Shown piece after piece: positions 3,484 to 57,322 of a stretch of DNA of 64,000 nucleotides (its first letter is position 1; the number at the start of each line of letters is the position of its first letter). The notes beneath the pieces were generated by a model, which did not search any database, had not been told where the DNA came from, and saw only the letters and a list, made by a program, of their open reading frames with translations. This DNA comes from Piper betle. Lineage: Eukaryota > Streptophyta > Magnoliopsida > Piperales > Piperaceae. The stretch spans positions 1 to 64,000 of the forward strand of contig JAURVB010001852.1 of NCBI GenBank assembly GCA_033002965.1. The letters are read 5' to 3'. A program made the position numbers and the translations under genes.

Positions 3484-6400
3484 ATGGCAGGCACCCGAAG
3501 GAAGTCGAGCCAAGCTGCGCAGTCGGACACGAACGTGGAGAGTGTGTTAGGCCAAATTTTGACGGCCATACAGGGACTTGCGTAGGCTTCAGATAATACC
3601 AGTTCTGTGATTCAGAACATAGCGCAGCGATTACCGGGATTGGTAACAGGGAATGGAGCTCCAAATTCGGCTGCGGGTCCTAGTAGTGTCCCAAATGGGG
3701 ATCAGGGGAGCGCCCAAGAGCGGGTAGGGATAGCTGACCCGGGCGAGCGAGGGGAACTTCCAAACCCAGTGCCACCGGTAGTCCGACAAGTGGTACTGCC
3801 AGTTGGGGATGACAGTGATCGATACACTGTAGAGAAATTCCGGAGGAACGGAGCTGAGGTATTCATTGGTGGGACTGATCCAATGAAGGCGGAGAGCTGG
3901 TTGGACATTACTGAGAAAGCATTTAGAGCTCTCTCTGTGCCTCATCGCCATCAAGTGAGGTTGGCGACATGCATGCTTCAGGAGGAAGCATCCTATTGGT
4001 GGAAGTCCATGGAGAAGACTGCGTTCCATCAACGGGAGATTTCGTCCATTCCTTGGGCGGAATTTGTAACAGCTTTCAATGGACAATATTTTCCTGAGTC
4101 TGTTGTCCAGAAGAAAGCACTGGAATTTGCCACTCTAACTCAGAGGGATGATTCAGTCCGAGAGTATGCAAAAAATTTCTTGCAATTGGAGAGATTTGCA
4201 TCTGGGAGTCTGGCAACTGCCCGGGCCAGAGCAGACAAATTTTTCTGGGGGTTGAAGCCCGAATTGAGGAGTAGGGTTGCTACGGCGCCAAGAGGCACTA
4301 TAACCGAAGTGATTGAGGCAGCCACTACTCATGAGTTGGTGTACGACTATGTCCGTGCACAGAAACAGGGGAAGGCTACTATGCAACATAAGAATGCCAA
4401 CCAGGGTAGTAGCAAAAACAGGTCTGCAGAACACCAGCAGCAGAACTATCAATGGAATGTCGATGGGAACCGCAAAAGGAAGTTTCAGGAGATTCCGTAT
4501 CGACTATGTAAAAATTGCAACAAGATGCATTCAGGGTTATGCAGTGAGCCCCGTCGGTGCTACAATTGCGGAAGGACGGGACACCTGCAAAATGAGTGTC
4601 GTCAGCCCCTGAAGCAACAACAGGAGCAACCTGAAAAGGAGAAGACACCAGTTCCTAATCGCTACCCAGCACCTGCAAAATCGGTGGACAAAGGGAAGGC
4701 GAAACTTTTTGCAGTCGAAATCGAGGACGCTGAGAACGAGGACCACACAGTTCGAGGTAAAATTCTGATTCAAAGTGTTAGTGTGGATGTTTTATTTGAC
4801 TCGGGGTGTACACATTCGTTCCTATCATCCCGATTAGTTAAGAGTTTAGGACTCCAAACGTCTACATTACCCAAGACTTATAGGGTCACTACTGCAACGG
4901 GAGACGGGGAGGTCACAACGTTAGGAGTGACTAACCTATCCTTGGATATACAAGGGAAACCCTATGTATGGAATTTCATTGTCTATGGGATAATAGGCTT
5001 TGATGTACTGTTGGGAATGGACTGGTTGTCTGCACACCAGGCTTTTCTCGACTGTAAAGGGAGGAGAGTGTTGACGAAACCTTGTAATTGTGAGATGGGG
5101 GTCATTTTCCAAGGGTCATGGAATGATCCATCCTCTTGTATTGTGTCAGTTAGTGAGGCAACTGAGTGGTTTGGTGAGGGTTGTAAAGCCTTTTCGGCAA
5201 CTCTAGAGGAGTCTGAGTCCAAACCCAAAGAGTTGTCCATGATTCCGGTGGTAGCAGAATTTCCGGACGTATTTCCAGGTGAACTTCCAGGGTTACCTCC
5301 TAAGCGGGCAGTGGAGTTTGTCATTGACCTAGCACCTGGAGTATCACCAATTTCTAAAGCACCATACCGCATGGCTCCAGCGGAACTCAAGGAGTTAAAG
5401 AGTCAATTAGAAGAGCTGTTGCAGGCAGGCTTCATCCGACCAAGTACTTCACCCTGGGGAGCCCCTGTTCTTTTCGTAAAGAAGAAGGATGGCTCACTTC
5501 GATTGTGTATTGACTATCGCCAGCTCAATCAAGTGACAGTCAAGAATCGGTACCCCTTACCGAGGATTGATGATTTATTTGATCAGTTGAAAACAGCCGG
5601 AATATTCTCAAAAATAGACTTGCGGTCCGGATATCATCAACTGCGGGTGAAGGAATCTGACATACAGAAAATGGCTTTCCGAACTCGATATGGACATTAT
5701 GAGTTTCTGGTTATGCCTTTTGGTCTGACAAATGCACCAGCGGCCTTTATGTCACTTATGAACACGGTGTTCCACGAATACTTGGATAAGTTTATTATTG
5801 TGTTTGTGGATGACATTCTGGTCTATTCAAATAATGAGGAGGACCATGGGAAACACTTGTCCATTGCTCTTCAAGTTTTGAGGGAGAATCAATTGTTCGC
5901 CAAGTTATCAAAGTGTGACTTCTGGCTGAAGGAGGTGAATTTCCTCGGACATGTTGTCTCAAAGGCAGGGGTCGCAGTGGATCCATCAAAAGTGAGAGCA
6001 GTTACTGATTGGCCACAACCCAAGTCAGTCACAGACATCCGAAGTTTCCTTGGACTAGCAGGTTACTATCGGAAGTTCATTAAAGATTTCTCCTTGGTGG
6101 CATCGCCAATGACTAAGCTTACACGCAAGGGGGTCAAGTTCGAATGGAGTAACAAGTGTGAGGAGAGTTTCCAATCTTTGAAGAAGAGTTTAACTACTGC
6201 ACCAGTTTTGACTATACCAAATGGCAACGAAGGATTCGTGGTCTTCAGTGATGCATCTCTAGTGGGGTTAGGATGTGTCCTTATGCAAGATGGTAAGGTG
6301 GTGGCTTATGCCTCTCGCCAATTGAAGATTCACGAGCAAAATTATGCAACCCATGACTTGGAACTGGCAGCAGTTGTGTTTGCTCTGAAAATTTGGAGAC

Positions 6401-8121
6401 ACTATTTGTACGGAGCTCAGTTCGAGGTTTTCACCGACCACCAAAGTTTGAAGTATATCTTCACCCAGAATGACCTTAACCTTCGACAGAGGCGGTGGAT
6501 AGAATACTTGAAGGACTATGATTTCCAAATTTTATACCATCCGGGAAAAGCGAACGTTGTAGCCGACGCGTTGAGTCGGAAGGGCAAGGTGGACAAGGGT
6601 CAACAGCTAGCTAGACTTTGGGCTATGTCAGCTGAGGTGGTAGCTATTAACCCGGTGGAACGAGTGATAGGACTACTGGCGAACCTGGTTATCTCCAATG
6701 AATTGGTGGACCGAGTTAAGTTAACACAAATGGAAGATGAGAAGCTGAATGAAATGTTGGACAAAACTCCTGACATTGTAGCAGATTCCAACAGTGTAAT
6801 CAGATTTAGAGGGAGGTTGTGTGTACCCAACAATGATGCATTAAAGCGAGATATCCTGGAGGAAGCTCATCGTTCAAGGTTCTCAATACACCCTGGTGTT
6901 ACAAAGATGTACCAGGACTTAAAACGAACCTACTGGTGGATTGGGATGAAGAGGGATGTGGTGGATTTTGTTTCCAAGTGTCAGACGTGCCAATTGATCA
7001 AAGCCCAACATCAACTACCCGGTGGATTATTACAACCTTTAGAGATACCTACCTGGAAATGGGAGCGTGTCACATGTGATTTTATTACTAAACTCCCAAG
7101 GACTTTGAAGAGACATGACTCTATATGGGTAGTTGTGGACCGTTTGACTAAGGCAGCTCACTTTATCCCCACAAAATCAACAAGGACGGCAGAATACTTA
7201 GCAGAACTGTACATAAATAACATTGTCAGGCTGCATGGAATTCCAAAGGAGATAGTCTCTGACAGAGATCCCCTATTCACGTCACATTTTTGGGAAGTTT
7301 TCCAAAAAGCTATGGGGACCCAAATCAAGTTAAGTACAGCATATCACCCCCAAACTGATGGTCAGAGTGAGAGGACCAATCAAACCTTGGAGGATTTGTT
7401 GAGAGCTTGCATCCTCGACTGGGGAGGAGATTGGGAGAAACACCTAGCCTTGGCTGAATTCACCTATAATAACTCTTACCAAGCCAGTATAGGAATGACA
7501 CCGTTTGAAGCTTTATACGGTAGGCCTTGTCGATCTCCATCATGCTGGTTGGAGTCTACAGAGGTGGTTATAGTCGGGCCAGAGATGGTGAGAGAAGCAG
7601 CTGAAAAAGTGCAACTCATCCAGCAAAGGCTTAAGGCAGCTCAGGATCGGCAGAAAAGTTATGCTGACACTCGAAGGAAGGACTTAGAATTCCAAGTTGG
7701 GGAGTTCGTCTACCTTAAGACCTCACCTAAAAAGGGAGTGATCAGATTTAGAACATCAGGGAAGTTGAAGCCAAGATTCATAGGACCATTTCCAATTCTG
7801 GATCGAATCGGAAGTTGTGCATATAGATTAGCATTACCACCAAGCCTTGATGGTGTACACAATGTCTTTCATGTGTCAATGCTAAAGAAATATGTACGAG
7901 ATGAGAATCACATTATCACAAATTTTGCAGATTTAGAGCTACAATCGGATTTAACCTACGAGGAAAAACTGATTCGCATCTTGGCAAGGGAAACAAAGAC
8001 ACTCTGTAACAAGGAGATCCCTTTGGTAAAGGTATTATGGAGAAATCAGAGATCAAAAGAAGCTACATGGGAGACTGAACAGGAAATGACCAGAAAATAT
8101 CCTAGCCTGTTTGTAGCATAA
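3484..8121 (+). CDS. gag-pol: Tekay/Del-type gag-pol polyprotein, one premature amber codon
   Basis: This is the capsid and enzyme polyprotein of element A. The likely start is ATG 3484. TAG at 3583-3585 (codon 34) interrupts it, and the rest is open to TAA at 8121. The reverse relative A' has CAG at that codon, so the stop is a C-to-T change. Residue numbers here count from 3607: Retrotrans_gag about 75-265; CCHC knuckle [14 protein letters not shown] about 318-331, preceded by a CX2C pair near 301; protease [12 protein letters not shown] about 396-407; RT with FVDDILVYS at 733-741; RNase H near 880-945; integrase HHCC near 1085-1125, with D in VVVDRLTK near 1178, D in SDRDPLF near 1219 and E in [10 protein letters not shown] near 1256; chromodomain-like end with EATWETE. 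All catalytic residues I checked are present. The product would act in cytoplasmic particles and in nuclear integration. Confidence 0.93.
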
Positions 8122-33535: not shown

Positions 33536-35040
33536 ACAAAATTACTTAGTCCCCATTATGTTCTCATATGATTCTTAATTAAACTATCCAGACGCAACAA
33601 GATGTCAATCAAATCAGAAATTCCCTTTCATCAATCACACCCAAAAGAAGGCTCTACGTGTGTGTGTGTGTGTGTGTATGTGTGTAAAATAATCCATTAA
33701 CTTATCATTCTCATTTTGCAACCAAGAGAATACAATCAATCACATGCTTAAATATGTTCACCTTTCACTCCCATCTCCACTAATGTAGGCGATGTCAATT
33801 CAATTGAATAAATATATCTTTGTATGTTGTAATAGGGCATAGGGCTAGGGACCAAAAATAGGATAAACAAGAGAAAAAATCAGACGCTAATATGCACCTT
33901 AGCATTAAAAATCCTTTCTAAATCCTAACATACATGTACAAAAAATCCCCAAATACCGTAGCAATATGATACAAACTTTCTTAAATGTAGTAGCGAGTTG
34001 ACCCAATATAAGAACAAACTTTGCTTTGATTTGCCATTGGTTACCTGTTGCATTTTTTTCTTTTATTTTAAACTAGTGGAAGCCCATTGCTTCATCTTGT
34101 GTGTACAAGTGGAGGATCATTGCCTTGTCTTGTTTTCCATTTTTTCTTTTTTCGATTTTTCTTTTTTTACAAAGCAAAGTGCCAGGAAAGTCCACACTAT
34201 TTACTCAATTACCACTCTATGAAAAGCAATGCCCCCTCCATACTACTCAAAGTTTCATCCCCGTTAGAATTTATTACGAATTCAAAACACTAGGACGCTC
34301 GGACTTAAGCAGCAAGATATATTTTCAATAAAAAGGACAAGGCTAAAATAAGGGTAATCAAACAAACACGTATAATAAAGGCCATAAATTTGTGTGCAGA
34401 GGATAATTTATATTAGGTAGGCTTGAAGAAAGGCCCAAACTCATCAAAAAGAATTGTTTATATCATTTTCCATGTACATGGCAAGCCAAATATTTCCCCT
34501 TAAAAGTTGCCAGGGCAAAATCTAAAAGTCATGACCATCATGTGCAATCCTTATTATAAAACATTCATTGAAATCATCTAAACCAAAGGATTATGAAAAT
34601 AATATAAGGTAGAGAACCAACTCTCGAATGCAATCTTTTACTCAGTTCATCCTTCCTATCAATTAATCAAGTTTTCCCAAGAAAGGTAAGACTAATTCAC
34701 ATGTATCTATCATTGAACCAAGAGACGAAAATTCCATTGCATAATAAAATTTTTACACTAAACTACACTATATATATATATATTCATATCTAAATCTAAA
34801 CATGAGTCAAGCATGAACAATATGCATAAAATTAAGGCATCACCCCCAAACTTAAACTAAACGTTGTCCTCATAAATAAAAATAACAATAAAGAGGAAGA
34901 AGTGAAAGAGAACTCCCTCAACCAATTAGTCGATGGATGATTATCATCAATAACTAAATTTGCACTTGACCCATGCTACAAAAATAAAAAGAAATATATT
35001 AAAAAAAGCTACAAATTGAAATAAACTTTTAAAAGAAGTC
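33536..35040 (-). other. Non-coding 3' region of X1
   Basis: Collinear with 51062-52620 of X2. Contains TG and TA microsatellites (33659-33684, 34768-34782). I see no gene in it; the ORF near 33998-34331 is low-complexity T-rich sequence. Confidence 0.7.
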
Positions 35041-35077
35041 ACTTGGGTTGCCTCCCAAGAAGTGCTTGGTTTAACAT

Positions 35078-35700
35078 CTATAGCCCGATTATCTTGATAA
35101 TCTCCAAAATAGGTGGCACTTCAACTAATGGCAGCAATCTGTGGAATGGTAAATCTAAGGTTTCCACAATTTTGAATCTCTTAGGCAAGATTTGTTGTGA
35201 ATCTGATAGTTTAATGATCTCTTCCACATCAGTATCATCTTCACAAAGAGAATGTATGGCCTTATGTAATGAATCACTCAACTGATCCCCTTTGTACATT
35301 ATTTTATCAAATAGTTCAATTCTAGAACAATCATATGTTGCATCCAGGCAATTCATGGATTTAAAGATATTATATGTGACATAATCGTTGTTTACCCTAT
35401 GTATAAGTTTTCCAACAGCTACGTCGATCAGTGTTCTCCCAGTTGCTAAGAAACCTCTCCCAACAATGAGTGGTATATCGTCATTCCTTCCTTCCATTTC
35501 AAGCACCACAAAATCTACAGGAAAGATAAACTTGTCAACCTTTATTAAAACATCTTCAATGACTCCTTTAGGATATACCCATGACCGGTTAGCCAACTGG
35601 AGTGTGATGTCGGTAGGAGCAATATCCTGGATTCCTAACCTTTTGAAAATCGAAAAGGCATAAGATTAATGCTAGAACCTAAGTCACATAAAGCATTACA
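35078..35700 (-). pseudogene. Athila-type protease region of X1 (172-aa open frame)
   Basis: The frame at 35078-35596 carries the Athila protease core: YPKGVIEDVL, KVDKFIFPVDFVVLEMEGR, IPLIVGRGFLATGRTLIDV. The catalytic aspartate motif (GLGSSIN, altered from DLGSSIN) lies just upstream near 35690 in a shifted frame. After the protease a linker ends PPILEIIKIIGL, the point that normally precedes RT, then a stop and LNQALLGRQP-like sequence typical of the end of Athila pol. This shows RT to integrase were removed. Confidence 0.85.
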
Positions 35701-37654: not shown

Positions 37655-37672
37655 TCCCTGGCAACGATGCCA
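37655..37672 (-). promoter_or_regulatory. PBS of X1 (tRNA-Asp)
   Basis: The reverse complement begins TGGCATCGTTGCCAGGGA, matching the 3' end of plant tRNA-Asp with one change. Confidence 0.85.
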
Positions 37673-37678
37673 AAAACT

Positions 37679-38846
37679 TGTTCGAATAATTTCAATGACA
37701 TGCAAGTATACACAGTCAAAACAAGTAATATAATGATAAATTCGAATATCATCCCACAGAGAGATGAATTTCCTTAAATTAATTAAAGAAAATTAAATTA
37801 AAAGCAAAATAGAAACAATCGACTTGAACTAAATCTAACTAATAACTTTAAATTAAAGAAAGAGTTATAATGATAAAATTCGTTCTAGAGTCGAATTTCC
37901 CTTAATATTGAATTTAATCTTCATCAAATCTTACTTTTATCTTTTATTCCTTCAGATTGTCAATCTAGGATAATTATATGACATGGTGGCTCCCGCTCCT
38001 TCATGCTTCTATTATTTTGCCTCAATTTCTACCTCCTGGTGATAATTGATTAATCAACAAAATAATGCATTAAGATTTACCTTACAATCGCATACGGTGT
38101 TATGTATCTCCCGACCACAATGACAAACAAGTCAAAAGACTCGATAGTATGATGAATTATCAATGACTAATCTAATTAATTTCTCCCGAAATCTAATTAA
38201 ACCTCATGATCTAAGAAATAGGCGATCAATCTATTCTTAACATTTAGAACATGATAATTCAAACAATCTAATTGAATAAAATAGTAAGAGCTTGAAATGA
38301 ATTCAATTAAATCATGTTAAGTTTCATTCTTCTCTAGAACGAAGCATAAGACTACTCCATAATAAAAATAGAAAACAATATGAAAAAAACTATTTTTCAT
38401 TTTAAGAAGAAAAGAGTTACAAAACTAAAACTACTTCTAAGCCAAAAGTTGAGATATCTCAAACAACAAATGACCACCCTTTATATAGAAGATGAGATGC
38501 CCACAAGATACATGAATTGAAGGAGGTTTCTTACACATCAACGTAGACTAATTAATTATGATGTCCATTCAAATTTCCAACTCCTCGACATACTCAAATG
38601 TAGCCAAGATAATTTACGTCCATCTTCGTCAAACTTTGTCATTGGGTGACCATGACCTTTCAATTCCAAAGCTTAATTTGTTTCTTCTTTTTCTGCATTA
38701 AAAATCCAAAATTAAGTATATCTCATAAAATATTAATTAACTAGAATAAAATGAGAAATATCACATAAGTAATAATGTTTATACCCGAGAAGTACAAAAT
38801 CATATTAAAAATATGGGTAAATATTGTATACTTTAAATACTTAACA
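37679..38846 (-). repeat. X-family LTR (1168 bp), shared by X1 and a truncated neighbour
   Basis: On the minus strand, TGTTAAGTATT to CGAACA. TATATAAA complement is at 38481-38488. Sequence on its right (38847-39282) is the 3' internal end of the same family, so this LTR closes one element and opens the next. Confidence 0.88.
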
Positions 38847-39282
38847 CAACCCCAAACTTAAACTTTTGTGCGTCCCGAGCAAAATATCATAACCAAGAAA
38901 ATTTTACAACACAAAATTACGTAGTCCACATTATGTTCTCATATGATTTTTAATCAAACTATCTAGAGGCAACAAGATGTCAATCAAATCAAAAATTTCC
39001 CTTCATCAATCACATCCAAAAGAAGGCTCTAAGTGTGTGTGTGTGTGTGCGCGTAAGATAATCCATTAGCTTATCATTCTCATTTGCAACCAAGAGAATA
39101 CAATCAAGCACATGCTTAAATATATTCACCTTTCGCTCCCATTTCTACTAATGTAGGTGATGTCAATTCAATGGAATCAATAGGTCTTTATACGTTATAA
39201 CAGGGCCAATGGCTAGGGACCAAAAATAGGATAAACAAGAGAAAAAAATAAGACGCTAATATGCACCCTAACATTAAAAATC
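38847..39282 (-). mobile_element. 3' internal fragment of a second X-family element
   Basis: Collinear with 51062-51490 of X2, including the purine-rich tract next to the LTR (CCCCAAACTTAAACTTTTG on the plus strand). A TG/CG microsatellite is at 39032-39050. Truncated at about 39282. Confidence 0.85.
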
Positions 39283-49906: not shown

Positions 49907-51061
49907 TGTTTGAATATTTTCAATGACGTGCAAGTATACACGGTCGAAACAAGTAATATAATGATAAATTGAGTATCGTCCCACAGGGAGATGAATTTCC
50001 TATAATTAATTAAAGAAAATAAAATGAGGAACAAAACAAAAATAACTGACTTAACTAAATCTAAGTAATAACTTTAAATTAAAAGCAACGATTAAAATTA
50101 TAAAACTCGTTCTAGAGTCGAATTTCCCTTAACATGAATTTAATCTTCATCAAATCTTACTCTTATCTTTTATTCCCTCGGATTGTCGATCTAGGATAAT
50201 TATATGACATGGTGGCTCCCGCTCCTTCATGCTTCTATTATTTTGCCTCAATTTCTACCTCCCGGTGATAATTGATTAATCAACAAAATAATGCATTAAG
50301 ATTTGCCTTACAATCGCATACGGTGTTGTGTATCTTCCGACCACAACGACAAACAAGTCAAAAGACTCGTCGTATGATGAATTACCAATGACTAATCTAA
50401 TTAATTTCTCCCGAAATCTAATTAAACCTCGTGATCTAAGAAATAGGTGATCAATCTATTCTTAGCATTAAGAATATGATAATTCAAACATTCCGATTGA
50501 ATAAAAGAGTAAAAGCTTGAAATAAATTCAATTAAATCATGTTAAGTTCCACTCTTCTCTAGAACGAAATAAAAGACTACTCCATAATAAAAATAGAAAA
50601 CAATATAAAAAAGAAACTAATTTTTACTATGAAAGAGAAAGAAATTACAAAAACTAAAACTACTTCTTTCACTACACTTCGAAGCCAAGAGATGAGATAT
50701 GATAACAACAAATGACCACCCCTTTATATAGAAGTGGAGATACAAGAATTCGAAGAGAGTGTTCACAAATCGACGTAGTCTAATTAATTATAATGTCCCT
50801 TCAAGTTTCCAACTGTTCGACTCCATTGAACACCATAAATTGTAGCCATTGGGTGGGGCCAAGTGTCATGACCAATCAAATCCAAAGCTTAATTTATTCA
50901 TCTTTTTCTGCATTGAAACACCAAAATTAAGCATATCTAATAAAATATTAATTAACTAGAATATAATGAAAAATATCACTAAATTAATAATGTTTATACC
51001 CGAGAAGTACAAAATCATATTAAAAACATGGGTAAATATTATATATTTTAAACACTTAACA
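49907..51061 (-). repeat. 3' LTR of X2
   Basis: TGTTTGAAT on the plus strand (TGTTCGAAT in other copies) to CACTTAACA. Confidence 0.9.
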
Positions 51062-52338
51062 CACCCCCACACTTAAACTTTTGCACGTCCCGAGCAAAAT
51101 ATCATAACAAAGAAAATTTTACTACACAAAAATACTTAGTCCCCATTATGTTCTCATATGATTCTCAATCAAACCCTCAAGAGTCAACAAGATGTCAATC
51201 AAATCAGAAATTCCCTTTCATCAATCACATCCAAAAGAAAGCTCTCTGTGTGTGTGTGATAGTCCATTGGCTTATCATTCTCATCTGCAACCAAGAGAAT
51301 ACAATCAAGTACATGCTTAAATATGTTTACCTTTCGCTCCCATCTCCACTAATATAGGTAATGCCAATTAATGGAATCAATAGGTCTTTATAGGTTGTAA
51401 CGGGGCCAGGGGCTAGGGACCAAAAATCGGATAAATAAGATAGAAAAATCAGAGGCTAATATGCACCCTAGAATTAAAAATCCTTTCTAAATCCTGACAT
51501 ATATGTACAACAAATCCCCAAGCAATATGACACAAACTTCCTTAAATGTAGTATCGAGTTGACCCAATATAAGAACTAACTTTGCTTTGATTTTCCATTG
51601 ACTACCTACTACTTTTTCTTTTTCTCTTTTCTTTCAAACCAGTGGAAGACTCTTGCTTCATCTTGTATTTACTGGTGGAGGATCATTGCCTCATCTTTTT
51701 CTTTTCTTCTTTTTTTTTCTTTGTTTTTCTTCTCTCTTTTTTTTACAAAGCAAAGTGCCAGGATAGTCCACACTATTCACTCAATCCCCACTCTATAACA
51801 CGCAATGCCTTCCCCCTATACTACTCAAAATTTCATCCTTGTTAGAATTTGGAACGAATTCAAAACACTAGGGTGCTAGGACTCAAGCAGCAAGATATAT
51901 TTTCAATAAAAAGGCCAAGGCTAAAATAAGGGTAATCAAACAAATATGTATAATAAAGGCCATGAAATTGTGTACAGAGGATAATTCATATTAGGTAGGC
52001 TTGAAGAAAGGCCCAGACTCATCAAAAAGAAATGCCTATATCATTTTCCATCTACATGGCAAGCCAAATATTTCGCCTCGAAAGTCGCTAGGGCAAATTC
52101 TAAAAGTCATGACCATCATGTACAATCCTTATTGCAAAACATTCATCGAAATCATCTAAACCAAAGGATTGTGAAAATAATATAAGGTAGAGAACCAACT
52201 CTCAAATGTAATCTTTTACTCAGTTCATCCCTCATATCATTTAATCAAGTTTTCTCAAGAAAGGTAAGACTAATTCACATGTATCTATCATTGAACCAAG
52301 AGACTAAAATGCCATTGCATAATAAAATTTTTACACTA

Positions 52339-52380
<42 letters not shown>

Positions 52381-52620
52381 AAATCTAAACATGAGTCAAG
52401 AATGAACAATATGCATAAAATTAAGGCATCACCCCCAAACTTAAAGTAAGCATTGTCCTCAAAAATAAAAATAAGGAGAAAGAAGTGAAAGAGAACTCCC
52501 TCAACCAATTAGTCGGTGGATGATTATCATGAATAACTGAATTTGCACTTGACCCATGCTACAAAATAAAAAAAATATTTAAAAAAATCTACAAATAAAA
52601 ATAAACTTTTAAAATAAATC
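51062..52620 (-). other. Non-coding 3' region of X2
   Basis: Starts (minus-strand end) with a purine-rich tract beside the LTR. A (TA)n microsatellite is at 52343-52378. I see no gene; T-rich ORFs at 51598-51845 are low-complexity. Confidence 0.7.
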
Positions 52621-52862
52621 ACTTGGGTTGCCTCCCAAGAAGCGCTTGGTTTAACATCTACAGCCCGACCATCTTGATAATCTCCAAAATAGGTGGTACT
52701 TCAACTGATGGCAGCAATTTGTGGAATGGTAGATCTAAAGGTTCCACAACTCTAAATCTTCTAGGCTAGATCGGTTGCGAATCTAATACTTTAACCATTT
52801 CTTCCACATCAATATCTTCTTCACAAAGAGAATTTATGGCTTTATGTAATGAATCACTCAAC
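52621..52862 (-). pseudogene. Post-protease linker and end-of-pol tail of X2
   Basis: Minus-strand sequence continues the protease reading region interrupted at 53757. It includes INSLCEEDIDVEE and PSVEVPPILEIIK, which normally precede RT, then joins at once to the LLGGNP/GRQP-type end-of-pol sequence (52621-52670). A stop follows CEEDID...SQPI. The junction equals that of X1. Confidence 0.78.
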
Positions 52863-52934
52863 CTTTGTAGTATAGTGGTAAGTATTCCCCTTGTCACGCC
52901 GGTGACCTAGGTTCGATCCTCGGCAATGGCGCCA
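52863..52934 (+). ncRNA. tRNA-Asp(GTC)-derived sequence with 3' CCA, non-functional
   Basis: TTGTAGTATAGTGGTAAGTA is the D-arm half, CTTGTCAC the anticodon loop with GTC, GGTTCGATCC the T-arm, and GGCGCCA the acceptor 3' end including CCA. Plant nuclear tRNA genes do not encode CCA, so a mature tRNA was copied. One base is missing and others are changed in the anticodon stem, and about two 5' bases are replaced. It directly precedes reverse-oriented X-LTR sequence. Confidence 0.85.
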
Positions 52935-53757
52935 AAAGTTGTTCGAATATTTTCAATGACGTGCAAGTATACACGATCAAAACAAGTAATATAATGATAA
53001 ATCGAGTATCATCCCATAGGGAGATGAATTTCCTATAATTAACTAAAGAAATAAAATGAGGAGCAAAACAAAAATAACTGACATAACTAAATCTAAGTAA
53101 TAACATTAAATTAAAAGCGAAGTCAAAATCATAAAACTCGTTCTAGAGTCAAATTTCCTTAACATGAATTTAATCTTCATCAAATCTTACTCTTATCTTT
53201 TATTCCCTCGGATTGTCGATCTAGGATAATTATATGACATGGTGGCTCCCGCTCCTTGATGCTTCTATTATTTTGCCTCAATTTCTACCTCTTGGTAATA
53301 ATTGATTAATCAACAAAATAATGCATTATGATTTGCCTTTGCAATCGCATACGGTGTTGTGTATCTCCAGACCACAATGACAAACAAGTCAAAAGACTCG
53401 TCGTATGATGAATTACCAATGACTAATCTAATTAATTTTCTCCCGAAATCTAATTAAACCTCGTGATCTAAGAAATAGGTGATCAATCTGTTCTTAGCAT
53501 TAAGAATATGATAATTCAAACATTTTGATTGAATAAAAGAGTAAAAGCTTGAAATAAATTAGATTAAATCATGTTAAGCTTCACTCTTCTCTAAAACGAA
53601 ACAAAAACTACTCCATAATAAAAATAGAAAAAAATATAAAAAAGAAACTAATTTGTACTATCAAAGAGAAAGAAATTACAAACACTAAAAACTACTTCTT
53701 TCACTACACTTCGAAGCCAAGAGATGAGATATGATAGCAACAAATGACCACCCCTTT
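52863..53757 (+). mobile_element. tRNA-Asp plus LTR chimera: fossil minus-strand strong-stop DNA
   Basis: tRNA-Asp with CCA (52863-52934), spacer AAAGT (52935-52939), then the 3' end of an X-family LTR in reverse (52940 to 53750-53757, about 815 bp). This is the exact order of a tRNA primer extended through the PBS-proximal spacer, U5 and R. It lies in the protease-linker region of X2. X1 (35268-35310) shows the intact site. CCTTTGTA flanks both sides, partly through similarity to the tRNA 5' end. Confidence 0.8.
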
Positions 53758-54872
53758 GTACATTATTTTATCAGATATTTTAATTTTTGAACAATCATAT
53801 GTTTCATCCGGGCAATTCATGGATTTAAAGATGTTGAATGTGACACAATCGTTGTTTACTCTAAGTGTAAGTTTTCCAGCAGCTACGTCAATTAATGTTC
53901 TCCCAGTTGCTAAGAAACCTCTCCCGACAATGAGTGGTATATTGTCATTCCTTCCTTCCATTTCAAGCACTACAAAATCTGTAGGAAAGATAAACTTGTC
54001 AACCTTTATTAAAACATCTTCAATGTCTCCTTTAGGATATACCAATGATCGATCAGCCAACTGAAGTGTGATGTTGGTAGGAGCAATATCCTTGATTCCT
54101 AACCTTTTGAAAAGAGAAAAAGGCATAAGATTAATTGCTAGAACCTAAGTCACATAAAGCATTACAATGGACATTTCCTCCAATTGAACGTGGAATCACA
54201 AATTTTCCTGGGTCTTTTATCTTAGGAGGTAGTTTTCTTTGGAGGACAACACTACATTCCTCTGTCATAGCTACAACTTCATTGTAATATACTCTCCTTT
54301 TCTTTGCTAAAATATCCTTCAAGTATTTTACATAACTAGGCATCTGGTCAAGTGCTTCAGCAAAAGGTATGTTAATTTGTAATTTCTTAAATATATCAAG
54401 AAATTTTTTAAAATATTTTTCATCACTTTGTTTCCTCAATCTAGAAGGAAATGGTACCTTTTCTTCGACCTCATCTACAAGTACTTCATCTTTTTCTTTC
54501 CCTTTGCTTCCGAGTAAGCTAACCAATGTATTGGGTTCACGTTCGTTGCTAGGCTTATCATCTTTTTCCCTAACTTAATTGGGTTGAACTGGTTCTTGTA
54601 AAGTAATACCAGTCCAGGTTGTTATAGCTTTGCAATGCTCTTGACCATCATTCCTTGGTTGTTCTTATTGGCTAGGAAGTACATGCTTGGGTCGCTCACT
54701 TGGTTCCTTGTTTAATTGCACCATAACTTGTTGCATAAATTGTTGTTGTTGCCGATTCTGCATAAATTATTGCATAGTTTGTTGCATGAAATTGAACATT
54801 TGGATCAAATCCGGTTGTTGTGGTTGAAAAGAAAGTGAAGGAGGTCGAGAATGTGATGGTGGTGGTGGTGGA
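53758..54872 (-). pseudogene. Athila-type protease and preceding hinge of X2
   Basis: Hinge frame 54131-54526 (FPSRLRKQSDEKYFKKFLDI, MPSYVKYLKDILAKKRR, CSVVLQRKLPPKIKDPG) ends at the catalytic DLGSSN motif, where an extra A shifts the frame. The protease core then runs from MPFSLFKRLGI at 54126 through LQLADRSLVYPKG, KVDKFIFPTDFVVLEMEGR and IPLIVGRGFLATGRTLIDV to MYKG at 53758. There the strong-stop insertion begins and adds unrelated residues. Repeated TTGTTG codons lie near 54740. The product would cleave gag; the copy is broken twice. Confidence 0.86.
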
Positions 54873-56032
54873 TTAGTGGGAACAGCAACCAGCTTGTGGA
54901 GAATTATTCCATGAAAAGTTGGGGTTATTGCGCCAGCCCGCATTGTAGGTGTTGGAATAGCGATTGTTGTTTATATTATAGTTGCCTACGTAGTTAACTT
55001 GATCTGTTGTACATTGACCTGTAGAATGTCCTTGTCCACACCATTCACACCTTGGCTCCACAGCCTTAACATGTCTCTGTATATTAAGAATTTGAACTTG
55101 ATTAGCTAAAGCACTAACCTGAGTAGATAAAGTAGTAAGTGCATCTAATTCTAAAACTCCGGTAGTCCTTCTTGGATGCCTTTCTTGTGTGGCATGATGG
55201 TTGCTAGGAACCATTAATTCTAGCAATTGGAAAGCTTCATGTGTGCTCTCCCTAAGAAATGATCCATTGGCCGCCGCATCAACTATGTTGTTTGTAAGCC
55301 CCAACAACCCGTTATAAAAAGTTTGGAGTTGCATCCATCTTTCTATACCATGGTTGGGACACTTTTTTAACAATTCTTTATATCTTTCCCATGCCTCAAA
55401 GAGAGACTCACCATCAAACTGCAAAAAAGATAAAATTTTATTACGTAATCTAGCAGTTTTAGAAGGTCGAAAACATTTTAACAAAAATTTTTAGATAATT
55501 CATCCCAACTGGTTATTGAATCTAATGATGACAACCATTCTTTCGCACTTCCTATTAATGAGAATGGAAATAAGCGAAGGCGGAGAACATCATCAAAGAC
55601 ACCTGGTTGCTTATACATATCACAAACCGATAAGAAATCCATGATATGCCTATTAGGATTTTCATTAGGCAACCCACTAAATTGTCCTATGGTTTGTAAC
55701 ATGTTAAATAAAACTGGTTTGAGCTCGAAGTGGGTCACATCCACCGGTGGTGCAATAATACTAGGTTGTAACCCTCTTGCAAGAGGTACAACCCAATCTT
55801 GGATTGCCCCATTGTCATCATTAGCTACTGCTACAATTGGTGGAAATGGAGGCATTTGTTGTTGTTGTGGGTCCATGGCTTCTTCTTCTATGGCTTCTTG
55901 TGCACTTCTTCCAGCGGCACGCAAGTTTCTCAAAGTCCTTTCAATCTCTAGATCATAAGAAAACAAAGGTGACTGCACCAATCGATGCATAAACAAATGA
56001 TAACAAATAAATGATATCAAGGAAGAAGGCAA
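54873..56032 (-). pseudogene. gag: Athila-type gag of X2, one frameshift
   Basis: Frame 55478-56032 carries the N-terminal region (MDPQQQQ start at 55876; FNMLQTIGQFSG; FDDVLRLRLFPFSLIGSAKEW). An extra A near 55485 shifts to frame 54873-55484, with PSKTARLRNKILSFLQFDG, EAWERYKELLKKCPNHG, WMQLQTFYNGL and the zinc knuckle CEWCGQGHSTGQC (near 55030-55070). Without the single base the gag would be continuous, so decay is recent. Motif order is typical of Athila. As the structural protein it could package the element's RNA if the enzymes came from a partner. Confidence 0.88.
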
Positions 56033-56143
56033 TGATATAGTTTTTTTTCTTTAAAAATAATAATAATAATCAGACACTAAAATCTAAAAAGAAAAGAAAA
56101 ACACTCAAAATTCTAATCCTAAATTAATTAAGAAAATTCGGTC

Positions 56144-56161
56144 TCCCCAGCAACAGCGCCA
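56144..56161 (-). promoter_or_regulatory. PBS of X2 (tRNA-Asp)
   Basis: The reverse complement reads TGGCGCTGTTGCTGGGGA, complementary to the 3' end of tRNA-Asp with small differences. It is separated from the LTR by AGTTTT-type spacer. It matches the tRNA for the PBS length only, unlike the insert at 52863. Confidence 0.88.
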
Positions 56162-56167
56162 AAAACT

Positions 56168-57322
56168 TGTTCGAATATTTTCAATGACGTGCAAATATAC
56201 ACGGTCAAAATAAGTAATATAATGATAAAATTGAGTATCGTCCCACAGGGAGTTGAATTTCCTATAATTAATTAAAGAAAATAAAATGAGGAACAAAACA
56301 AAAATAACTGACTTAACTAAATCTAAGTAATAACTTTAAATTAAAAGCAACGTTAAAATTATAAAACTCGTTATAGAGTCGAATTTCCCTTAACATGAAT
56401 TTAATCTTCATCAAATCTTACTCTTATCTTTTATTCCCTCGGATTGTCGATCTAGGATAATTATATGACATGGTGGCTCCCACTCCTTCATGTTTCTATT
56501 ATTTTGCCTCAATTTCTACCTCCCGGTGATAATTGATTAATCAACAAAATAATGTATTAAGAATTGCCTTACAATCGCATACGGTGTTGTGTATCTTCCG
56601 ACCACAACGACAAACAAGTCAAAAGACTCGTCGTATGATGAATTATCAATAACTAATCTAATTAATTTCTCCCGAAATCTAATTAAACCTCGTGATCTAA
56701 GAAATAGGTGTTCAATCTATTCTTAGCATTAAGAATATGATAATTCAAACATTCCGATTGAATAAAAGAGTAAAAGCTTGAAATAAATTCAATTAAATCA
56801 TGTTAAGTTCCACTCTTCTCTAGAACGAAATAAAAGACTACTCCATAATAAAAATAGAAAACAATATAAAGAAGGAACTAATTTTTATTATGAAAGAGAA
56901 AGAAATTACAAAAACTAAAACTACTTCTTTCACTAAACTTCGTAGCCAAGAGATGAGATATAATAACAACAAATGACCACCCCTTTATATAGAAGTGGAG
57001 ATAGAAGAAGTCGAAGAGAGTGTTCACAAATCGACGTAGTCTAATTAGTTATAATGTCCATTCAAGTTTCCAACTGTTCGACTCCATTGAACACCATAAC
57101 TTGTAGCCATTGGGTGGGGCCAAGTGTCATGACCAATCAAATCTAAAGCTTAATTTATTCATCTTTTTCTGCATTGAAACACCAAAATTAAGCATATCTA
57201 ATAAAATATTAATTAACTAGAATATAATGAAAAATATCACTAAATTAATAATGTTTATACCTGAGAAGTACAAAATTATATTAAAAACATGGGTAAATAT
57301 TATATATTTTAAACGCTTAACA
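56168..57322 (-). repeat. 5' LTR of X2
   Basis: TATATAAA complement is at 56984-56991. The strong-stop fossil ends at the equivalent of 56978-56986, next to this TATA. Confidence 0.9.

Follow-up and report, generated by a model that had tools for sequence, protein, structure and literature searches.

An 895-bp insert at positions 52863-53757 of the window, a 64,000-nt stretch of Piper betle DNA (contig JAURVB010001852.1), is best explained as a captured reverse-transcription intermediate whose primer tRNA had been copied to within 2-4 nt of its 5′ end (probability about 0.75). The insert lies in X2, an LTR retrotransposon, where it separates the protease part of the reading frame from what follows downstream. 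It joins a tRNA-Asp sequence by its 3′ CCA to the complement of the spacer, U5 and R of an LTR of the same family (X); the order after the CCA is a 5-nt spacer, then U5 and R, all in minus-strand sense. Minus-strand DNA from which the primer has not been removed has just this layout; such an intermediate does not normally enter the chromosome. Because the match to the tRNA continues past 18 nt, and because spacer, U5 and R follow the CCA, the tRNA can be regarded as the primer in its primed position. The original prediction had proposed such a join in early minus-strand order and orientation, and the alignments agree; it had also held that the RNA primer was copied into DNA, which applies to nearly the whole tRNA. 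Within the window, the tRNA/LTR join is present in one copy. The coordinates of the features are collected in Table 1.

Table 1. Features of the insert, of its recipient element and of the paralogue X1 (positions in the window).
Feature	Position	Strand	Basis or remark
DNA copy of tRNA-Asp(GTC), nt 3 to terminal CCA	52863-52934	+	Alignment, Rfam model
Spacer, primer tRNA to U5	52935-52939	-	AAAGT on the + strand, 5 nt; in X1 and X2 6 nt, AAAACT
U5 and R of X-family LTR, plus about 13-26 nt of expected U3	52940-53757	-	Self-comparison
Left junction	52857-52866		Target end CTCAAC (52857-52862), then tRNA from nt 3
Right junction, 7-nt microhomology CCCCTTT	53751-53757		Common to LTR and target
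Empty site in paralogue X1, CTCAACTGATCCCCTTTGTACATT	35277-35300		Inside open frame 35081-35665 (-)
Recipient element X2	49907-57322	-	Self-comparison; complete-looking LTR element
X2 LTRs	49907-51061 (3′ LTR) and 56168-57322 (5′ LTR)	-	1155 bp each
Genuine X2 primer-binding site	56144-56161	-	16/18 to tRNA-Asp 3′ end, match stops at 18 nt
Genuine X1 primer-binding site	37655-37672	-	15/18 to tRNA-Asp 3′ end, match stops at 18 nt

The alignment reference was a sequence that we take to be plant tRNA-Asp(GTC) with CCA added. Its first 18 nt are confirmed as the tRNA-Asp forward primer in a published primer table (PMC6521008), and this 18-nt stretch occurs in at least 14 papers. Global alignment of 52861-52934 to this reference gave 65 identities, 9 mismatches and 1 gap over 75 columns; within the copy itself, which ends in CCA at 52932-52934, one 1-nt deletion and seven substitutions are found, nt 4 included. 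From nt 5 onward, 64 of 71 columns are identical, and from nt 5 to 57, i.e., beyond the 18-nt primer segment, 48 of 53. The copy had been described as full-length; it is near-complete, extending from nt 3 to the CCA, with nt 1-2, perhaps 1-4, missing. Its local score of 55 compares with 14 for the runner-up in a scan of the window, at the X2 primer-binding site (PBS) region, and with a maximum of 14 in 1000 dinucleotide shuffles. Without its last 18 nt, the tRNA body scores 41 at the insert and at most 12 elsewhere, which upholds the earlier claim of a match running through the body of the tRNA.

A covariance model had been proposed as a check, and the general tRNA model of Rfam aligns 52861-52931 end to end, but its 21.9 bits fall short of the gathering score (29). 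ARAGORN reports no tRNA gene in the window, and because of these two results the tRNA part is regarded as a copy that has decayed. From nt 5 onward it has six substitutions, five of which are C-to-T or G-to-A, and A58 reads A, without a mark of misincorporation. The ends approximate those of a mature tRNA, with CCA and without 5′ leader or 3′ trailer. A tRNA gene is ruled out, given the ARAGORN result, the encoded CCA and the lack of a leader. Of the Pol III promoter boxes, which lie within 52868-52920, the copy keeps the A-box region of tRNA-Asp unaltered and differs in the B box (GGTTCGATCCT) only at the last base. An exact search of viral contigs for the 26-nt 3′ part of tRNA-Asp with CCA returned no stretches, and the tRNA-Asp 3′ part, searched as text, was not found in the literature covered.

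The genuine PBSs of X2 and X1 match only the 3′ end of the tRNA, as had been claimed, and in both the best local match is exactly the last 18 nt. Over the next 42 ungapped positions, agreement is 8 in X2, 9 in X1 and 28 in the insert, whose single gap falls inside these positions. The methylated base m1A58 normally blocks reverse transcriptase, right where the 18-nt PBS match stops; the insert's match crosses this position and runs on to nt 3. The encoded CCA, which had been held against a tRNA gene, is present in the insert, but it is weak evidence alone because the PBSs of X1 and X2 encode CCA too. The strong evidence is the match past the 18th tRNA nucleotide. Simple PBS similarity is ruled out by the score of the tRNA body alone.

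Identity to the X2 3′ LTR (49907-50728) is 94.4% over 52940-53760, to the X2 5′ LTR with PBS 92.1% over 52917-53760, and to the X1 LTR 85.9% over 52922-53756. The LTR part of the insert lacks LTR nt 1-336 (or 1-343) and ends at or in the TATA box, with TATATAAA occupying LTR nt 332-339 in both X2 LTRs. The part thus reaches nt 344 of 1155, or nt 337 if the 7-nt microhomology at the junction is counted. A cap site generally lies about 25-32 nt after the first T of the TATA box. Inferred from that box, the X cap site would be near LTR nt 357-363, which places the insert end roughly 13-26 nt upstream, i.e., into U3. Either the first strand transfer had been completed, or transcription started unusually early, or a longer cDNA was trimmed. 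The insert had been called exactly strong-stop DNA, although the difficulty at the TATA box had been seen as well; because the LTR part passes the expected cap site, the insert is best called early minus-strand cDNA, and such tRNA-primed cDNA is the best source for it.

The claim that the target is another X element, with the empty site preserved in X1, holds: the X2 flanks of the insert align to X1 at 34917-35282 and 35287-35636, and the X1 frame that contains the site is 195 aa long. Among 19 aligned homologues of this frame, some run on through the empty-site region, though the alignment there is loose. The ancestral state is probably that of X1, because the site lies in an open frame and loss of the 4 or 7 bases that X2 is missing shifts the frame; the pre-insertion state is here that of one paralogue and not of an ortholog. 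Relative to X1, the four bases TGAT are absent from X2. At the LTR-side junction, the CCCCTTT microhomology named by the original prediction is indeed present in both LTR and target, and the chance of a microhomology of at least 7 nt at a random junction is about 4e-4 at equal base frequencies. At the left junction, either tRNA nt 4 is changed or a 2-nt filler is present. Eight nucleotides at the left junction, CCTTTGTA, recur at the right junction, a repeat partly explained by the microhomology.

An integrase would use the LTR ends and leave about 5 bp duplicated. The ends of the insert are tRNA nt 3 and a mid-LTR position, with no clear duplication and with 4 bp of target missing compared with X1; a clean integrase insertion is ruled out by the junction sequences. 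The repeat of CCTTTGTA could stem from a target-site duplication of 8 bp and a later deletion of 7 bp, a less simple reading because one more event is needed. A 7-nt microhomology and the loss of TGAT, as judged against the paralogous X1 site, are what capture at a break would leave, and capture at a double-strand break is the simplest reading of the junctions. Where the insert had been described as integrated, its junctions resemble microhomology-mediated break repair and not the work of integrase.

The LTR part of the insert differs from the X2 3′ LTR at 38 of 814 positions, from the X2 5′ LTR at 53 of 814 and from the X1 LTR at 89 of 795. Ten substitution columns group the insert with X1 and apart from both X2 LTRs; private substitutions number 24 in the insert, 2 in the X2 3′ LTR and 13 in the X2 5′ LTR. 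The 10 X1-like columns and 24 private substitutions suggest that the donor was probably a sister element and not X2 itself; the private substitutions also argue against an assembly or cloning chimera. Over the insert-equivalent part, the X2 LTRs differ at 19 of 817 positions, or about 1.2% per branch. For this age about 0.8 changes would be expected in the 71 nt of the tRNA part, compared with six found (P = 2e-4; if this GC-rich part changed twice as fast, P = 0.007, and if four times as fast, P = 0.12). The tRNA part (6/71 from nt 5) has also changed more than the LTR part (24 private/814; Fisher p = 0.027, for counts not made quite alike). Since the tRNA changes exceed what the age of the X2 LTRs predicts, the insert may be older than X2's own integration and have been carried along by X2.

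The recipient family was characterized from its protein-coding pieces. Retrotrans_gag (PF03732) was found in two of six X1 and X2 pieces scanned, one from each element; the other four gave no Pfam hit, and no pol domain was detected in any of the six. The X1 protease piece has 684 homologues, and the species among the 120 listed are plants. Those species are presumably all eudicots, as far as they were recognised (Humulus, Cannabis, Ulmus, Citrus, Olea). With its gag domain and related protease region, X classifies by sequence as a Ty3/gypsy-type LTR retrotransposon. For plant non-chromoviruses, tRNA-Asp is among the primers reported (PMC6317226). A search of viral contigs for relatives of the X1 frame gave four stretches that fit a pattern and none that was confirmed. 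The X2 LTR pair is 97.4% identical over 1156 columns in self-comparison, and the element is flanked by ATCCC and GTCCC, an imperfect 5-bp target-site duplication (TSD). After the X1 LTR, 37679-39282 aligns with the 3′ internal region of X2 (49907-51482), and 38911-39282 is a repeat of 33536-33913, as if two X elements with one LTR in common had been joined in tandem or by recombination to give X1. On the + strand, antisense to the X2 gag region, the Rfam model of snoR71, a plant C/D snoRNA, aligns end to end at 55345-55451 (44.4 bits against a gathering score of 40), which would be either a chance match or a sign that the snoR71 family is related to such elements. An unbroken gag-pol frame of 1511 aa at 3586-8121, with gag, protease, RT, RNase H and integrase, belongs to a different LTR retrotransposon; no other stop-to-stop frame of at least 220 aa is listed in the window.

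Captured cDNA is favoured because the tRNA identity is far above chance and extends past the PBS, whereas the genuine PBSs stop at 18 nt. It is favoured further because the tRNA ends are near-mature, because the X1 empty site lies in an open frame and microhomology is accompanied by a 4-bp loss, and because the LTR end, at nt 337-344 of 1155, is near the expected start of R. The LTR part passing the expected cap site, the presence of CCTTTGTA on both sides and the greater change of the tRNA part stand as counter-points. A longer or even full-length cDNA could instead have contributed its end, with the tRNA kept at the U5 end and copied, the other side cut back and the remainder captured at a break. 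The U3 portion of the LTR part follows naturally from such a molecule, and break insertions in yeast draw on every region of Ty1 (PMC10802722, a preprint). The end near the start of R would then be a coincidence; random ends are estimated to lie no more than about 27 nt from the expected cap site about 5% of the time (54/1155 nt), and we consider this origin unlikely.

Template switching in the virus-like particle could also produce the insert if the 3′ end of the minus strand jumped through CCCCTTT to an internal site of X RNA, the plus strand later jumped from the tRNA end back to neighbouring sequence, and the product integrated as X2. The polarity of the right junction fits, with minus-strand DNA ending in CCCCTTT on sense AAAGGGG, as does the possibility, from the excess of tRNA changes, that the insert predates X2 integration; but the second jump must land by chance within 4 bp of the first, and the scheme is quite improbable. 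An origin at the DNA level, in which a tRNA-Asp gene or tRNA-derived SINE beside an X LTR was copied or recombined together with it, has very little probability: CCA is present, leader and trailer are not, the sequence continues directly into spacer and U5, and there is no SINE body or tail. Chance resemblance, or resemblance to a PBS only, might be read into the low Rfam score and the absence of an ARAGORN call, but it is refuted by the scores of the whole copy against shuffled sequence and of its body against the rest of the window, and its probability is negligible.

For captured cDNA, the following course of events is proposed. A mature tRNA-Asp would have primed minus-strand synthesis on X-family RNA in the virus-like particle, and the cDNA would have run through U5 and R; it probably then made the first strand transfer and was extended into U3 by a few more nucleotides. 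RNase H would have left the tRNA in place, and a polymerase, either the element's reverse transcriptase or a repair polymerase, could then have copied the RNA-DNA chimera past m1A58, nearly to the 5′ end of the tRNA; both the retention and the bypass are inferred. Once in the nucleus, the molecule would have been inserted at a break in a copy of the X element, where CCCCTTT at its end paired with CCCCTTT of the target and 4 bp (TGAT) were lost. The tRNA part would then have decayed, mostly by C-to-T and G-to-A changes.

Capture of Ty1 cDNA at yeast double-strand breaks was reportedly described from 1996 to 1999. In wild-type yeast, 40 of 56 3′-LTR insertions at breaks carry nucleotides present only in Ty1 cDNA, as stated in a preprint (PMC10802722). 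The yeast events resemble the present one in that breaks receive cDNA intermediates of an LTR element through end joining, with a hotspot in the 3′ LTR region and with nucleotides found only in cDNA; the present insert differs as a natural, old plant event with a nearly complete primer tRNA and a copy of the same family as target. An HIV provirus offers another parallel, in which a mature tRNA-Gly with CCA was copied to DNA without its first 5 nt and adjoins the LTR (PMC12220202). That tRNA-Gly, however, is a non-primer tRNA found outside the 3′ LTR and explained by self-priming, whereas the insert has the primer tRNA where priming would place it, separated from U5 by the spacer. Filler DNA of maize is described as copied from nearby DNA (PMC2686159). 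The term "strong stop" is absent from the text of PMC4997597 and PMC3747384, and "strong-stop" from that of PMC3747384. No insertion of primer tRNA plus strong-stop DNA in a plant genome was found among the titles and abstract openings listed, a coverage with few subscription journals. What is known comprises cDNA capture at breaks and a mature tRNA beside an HIV provirus; for a plant case, with a near-complete primer tRNA copied, no report was found in the literature listed.

A retrovirus/strong-stop model for the origin of tRNA-derived SINEs was reportedly put forward by Ohshima and colleagues in 1993. The model is reported to postulate that a chimera of the present kind, primer tRNA plus strong-stop DNA, reaches the genome; the insert differs in that neither amplification nor a LINE-type tail is shown. 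The link to SINE birth is not supported as originally stated: TTTT begins at 52950, 16 nt past the tRNA copy, a likely point for a Pol III transcript to end. SINE identity is itself ruled out, as there is no tail and no clear TSD, with one copy in the window. The Helenus TRIM elements are LTR elements that likewise contain a tRNA sequence and its Pol III boxes (PMC10886601). Helenus elements form mobile families with the tRNA inside the LTR, whereas the insert is one tRNA copy that adjoins the U5 end of an LTR fragment in an internal region. The describer of Helenus ascribes its tRNA to SINE insertion (PMC10886601).

If the chimera is older than the X2 insertion, a small X family with an internal, nearly complete copy of the primer tRNA would exist, which is possible but doubtful. 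If true, the primer of an LTR element can itself be the direct source of tRNA sequence with Pol III boxes; tRNA-bearing LTR elements such as Helenus could then have arisen in this way instead of by SINE insertion, and the insert would be an actual case of the chimera that the model of SINE birth postulates. The sequence tRNA-CCA-spacer-U5-R provides a searchable signature for how often such intermediates reach plant genomes. Read as captured cDNA, the insert would be physical evidence that an attached primer tRNA can be copied nearly end to end, past its methylated base, and that the product can enter a plant chromosome, which is the first step of the old model for the birth of tRNA-derived retroposons.
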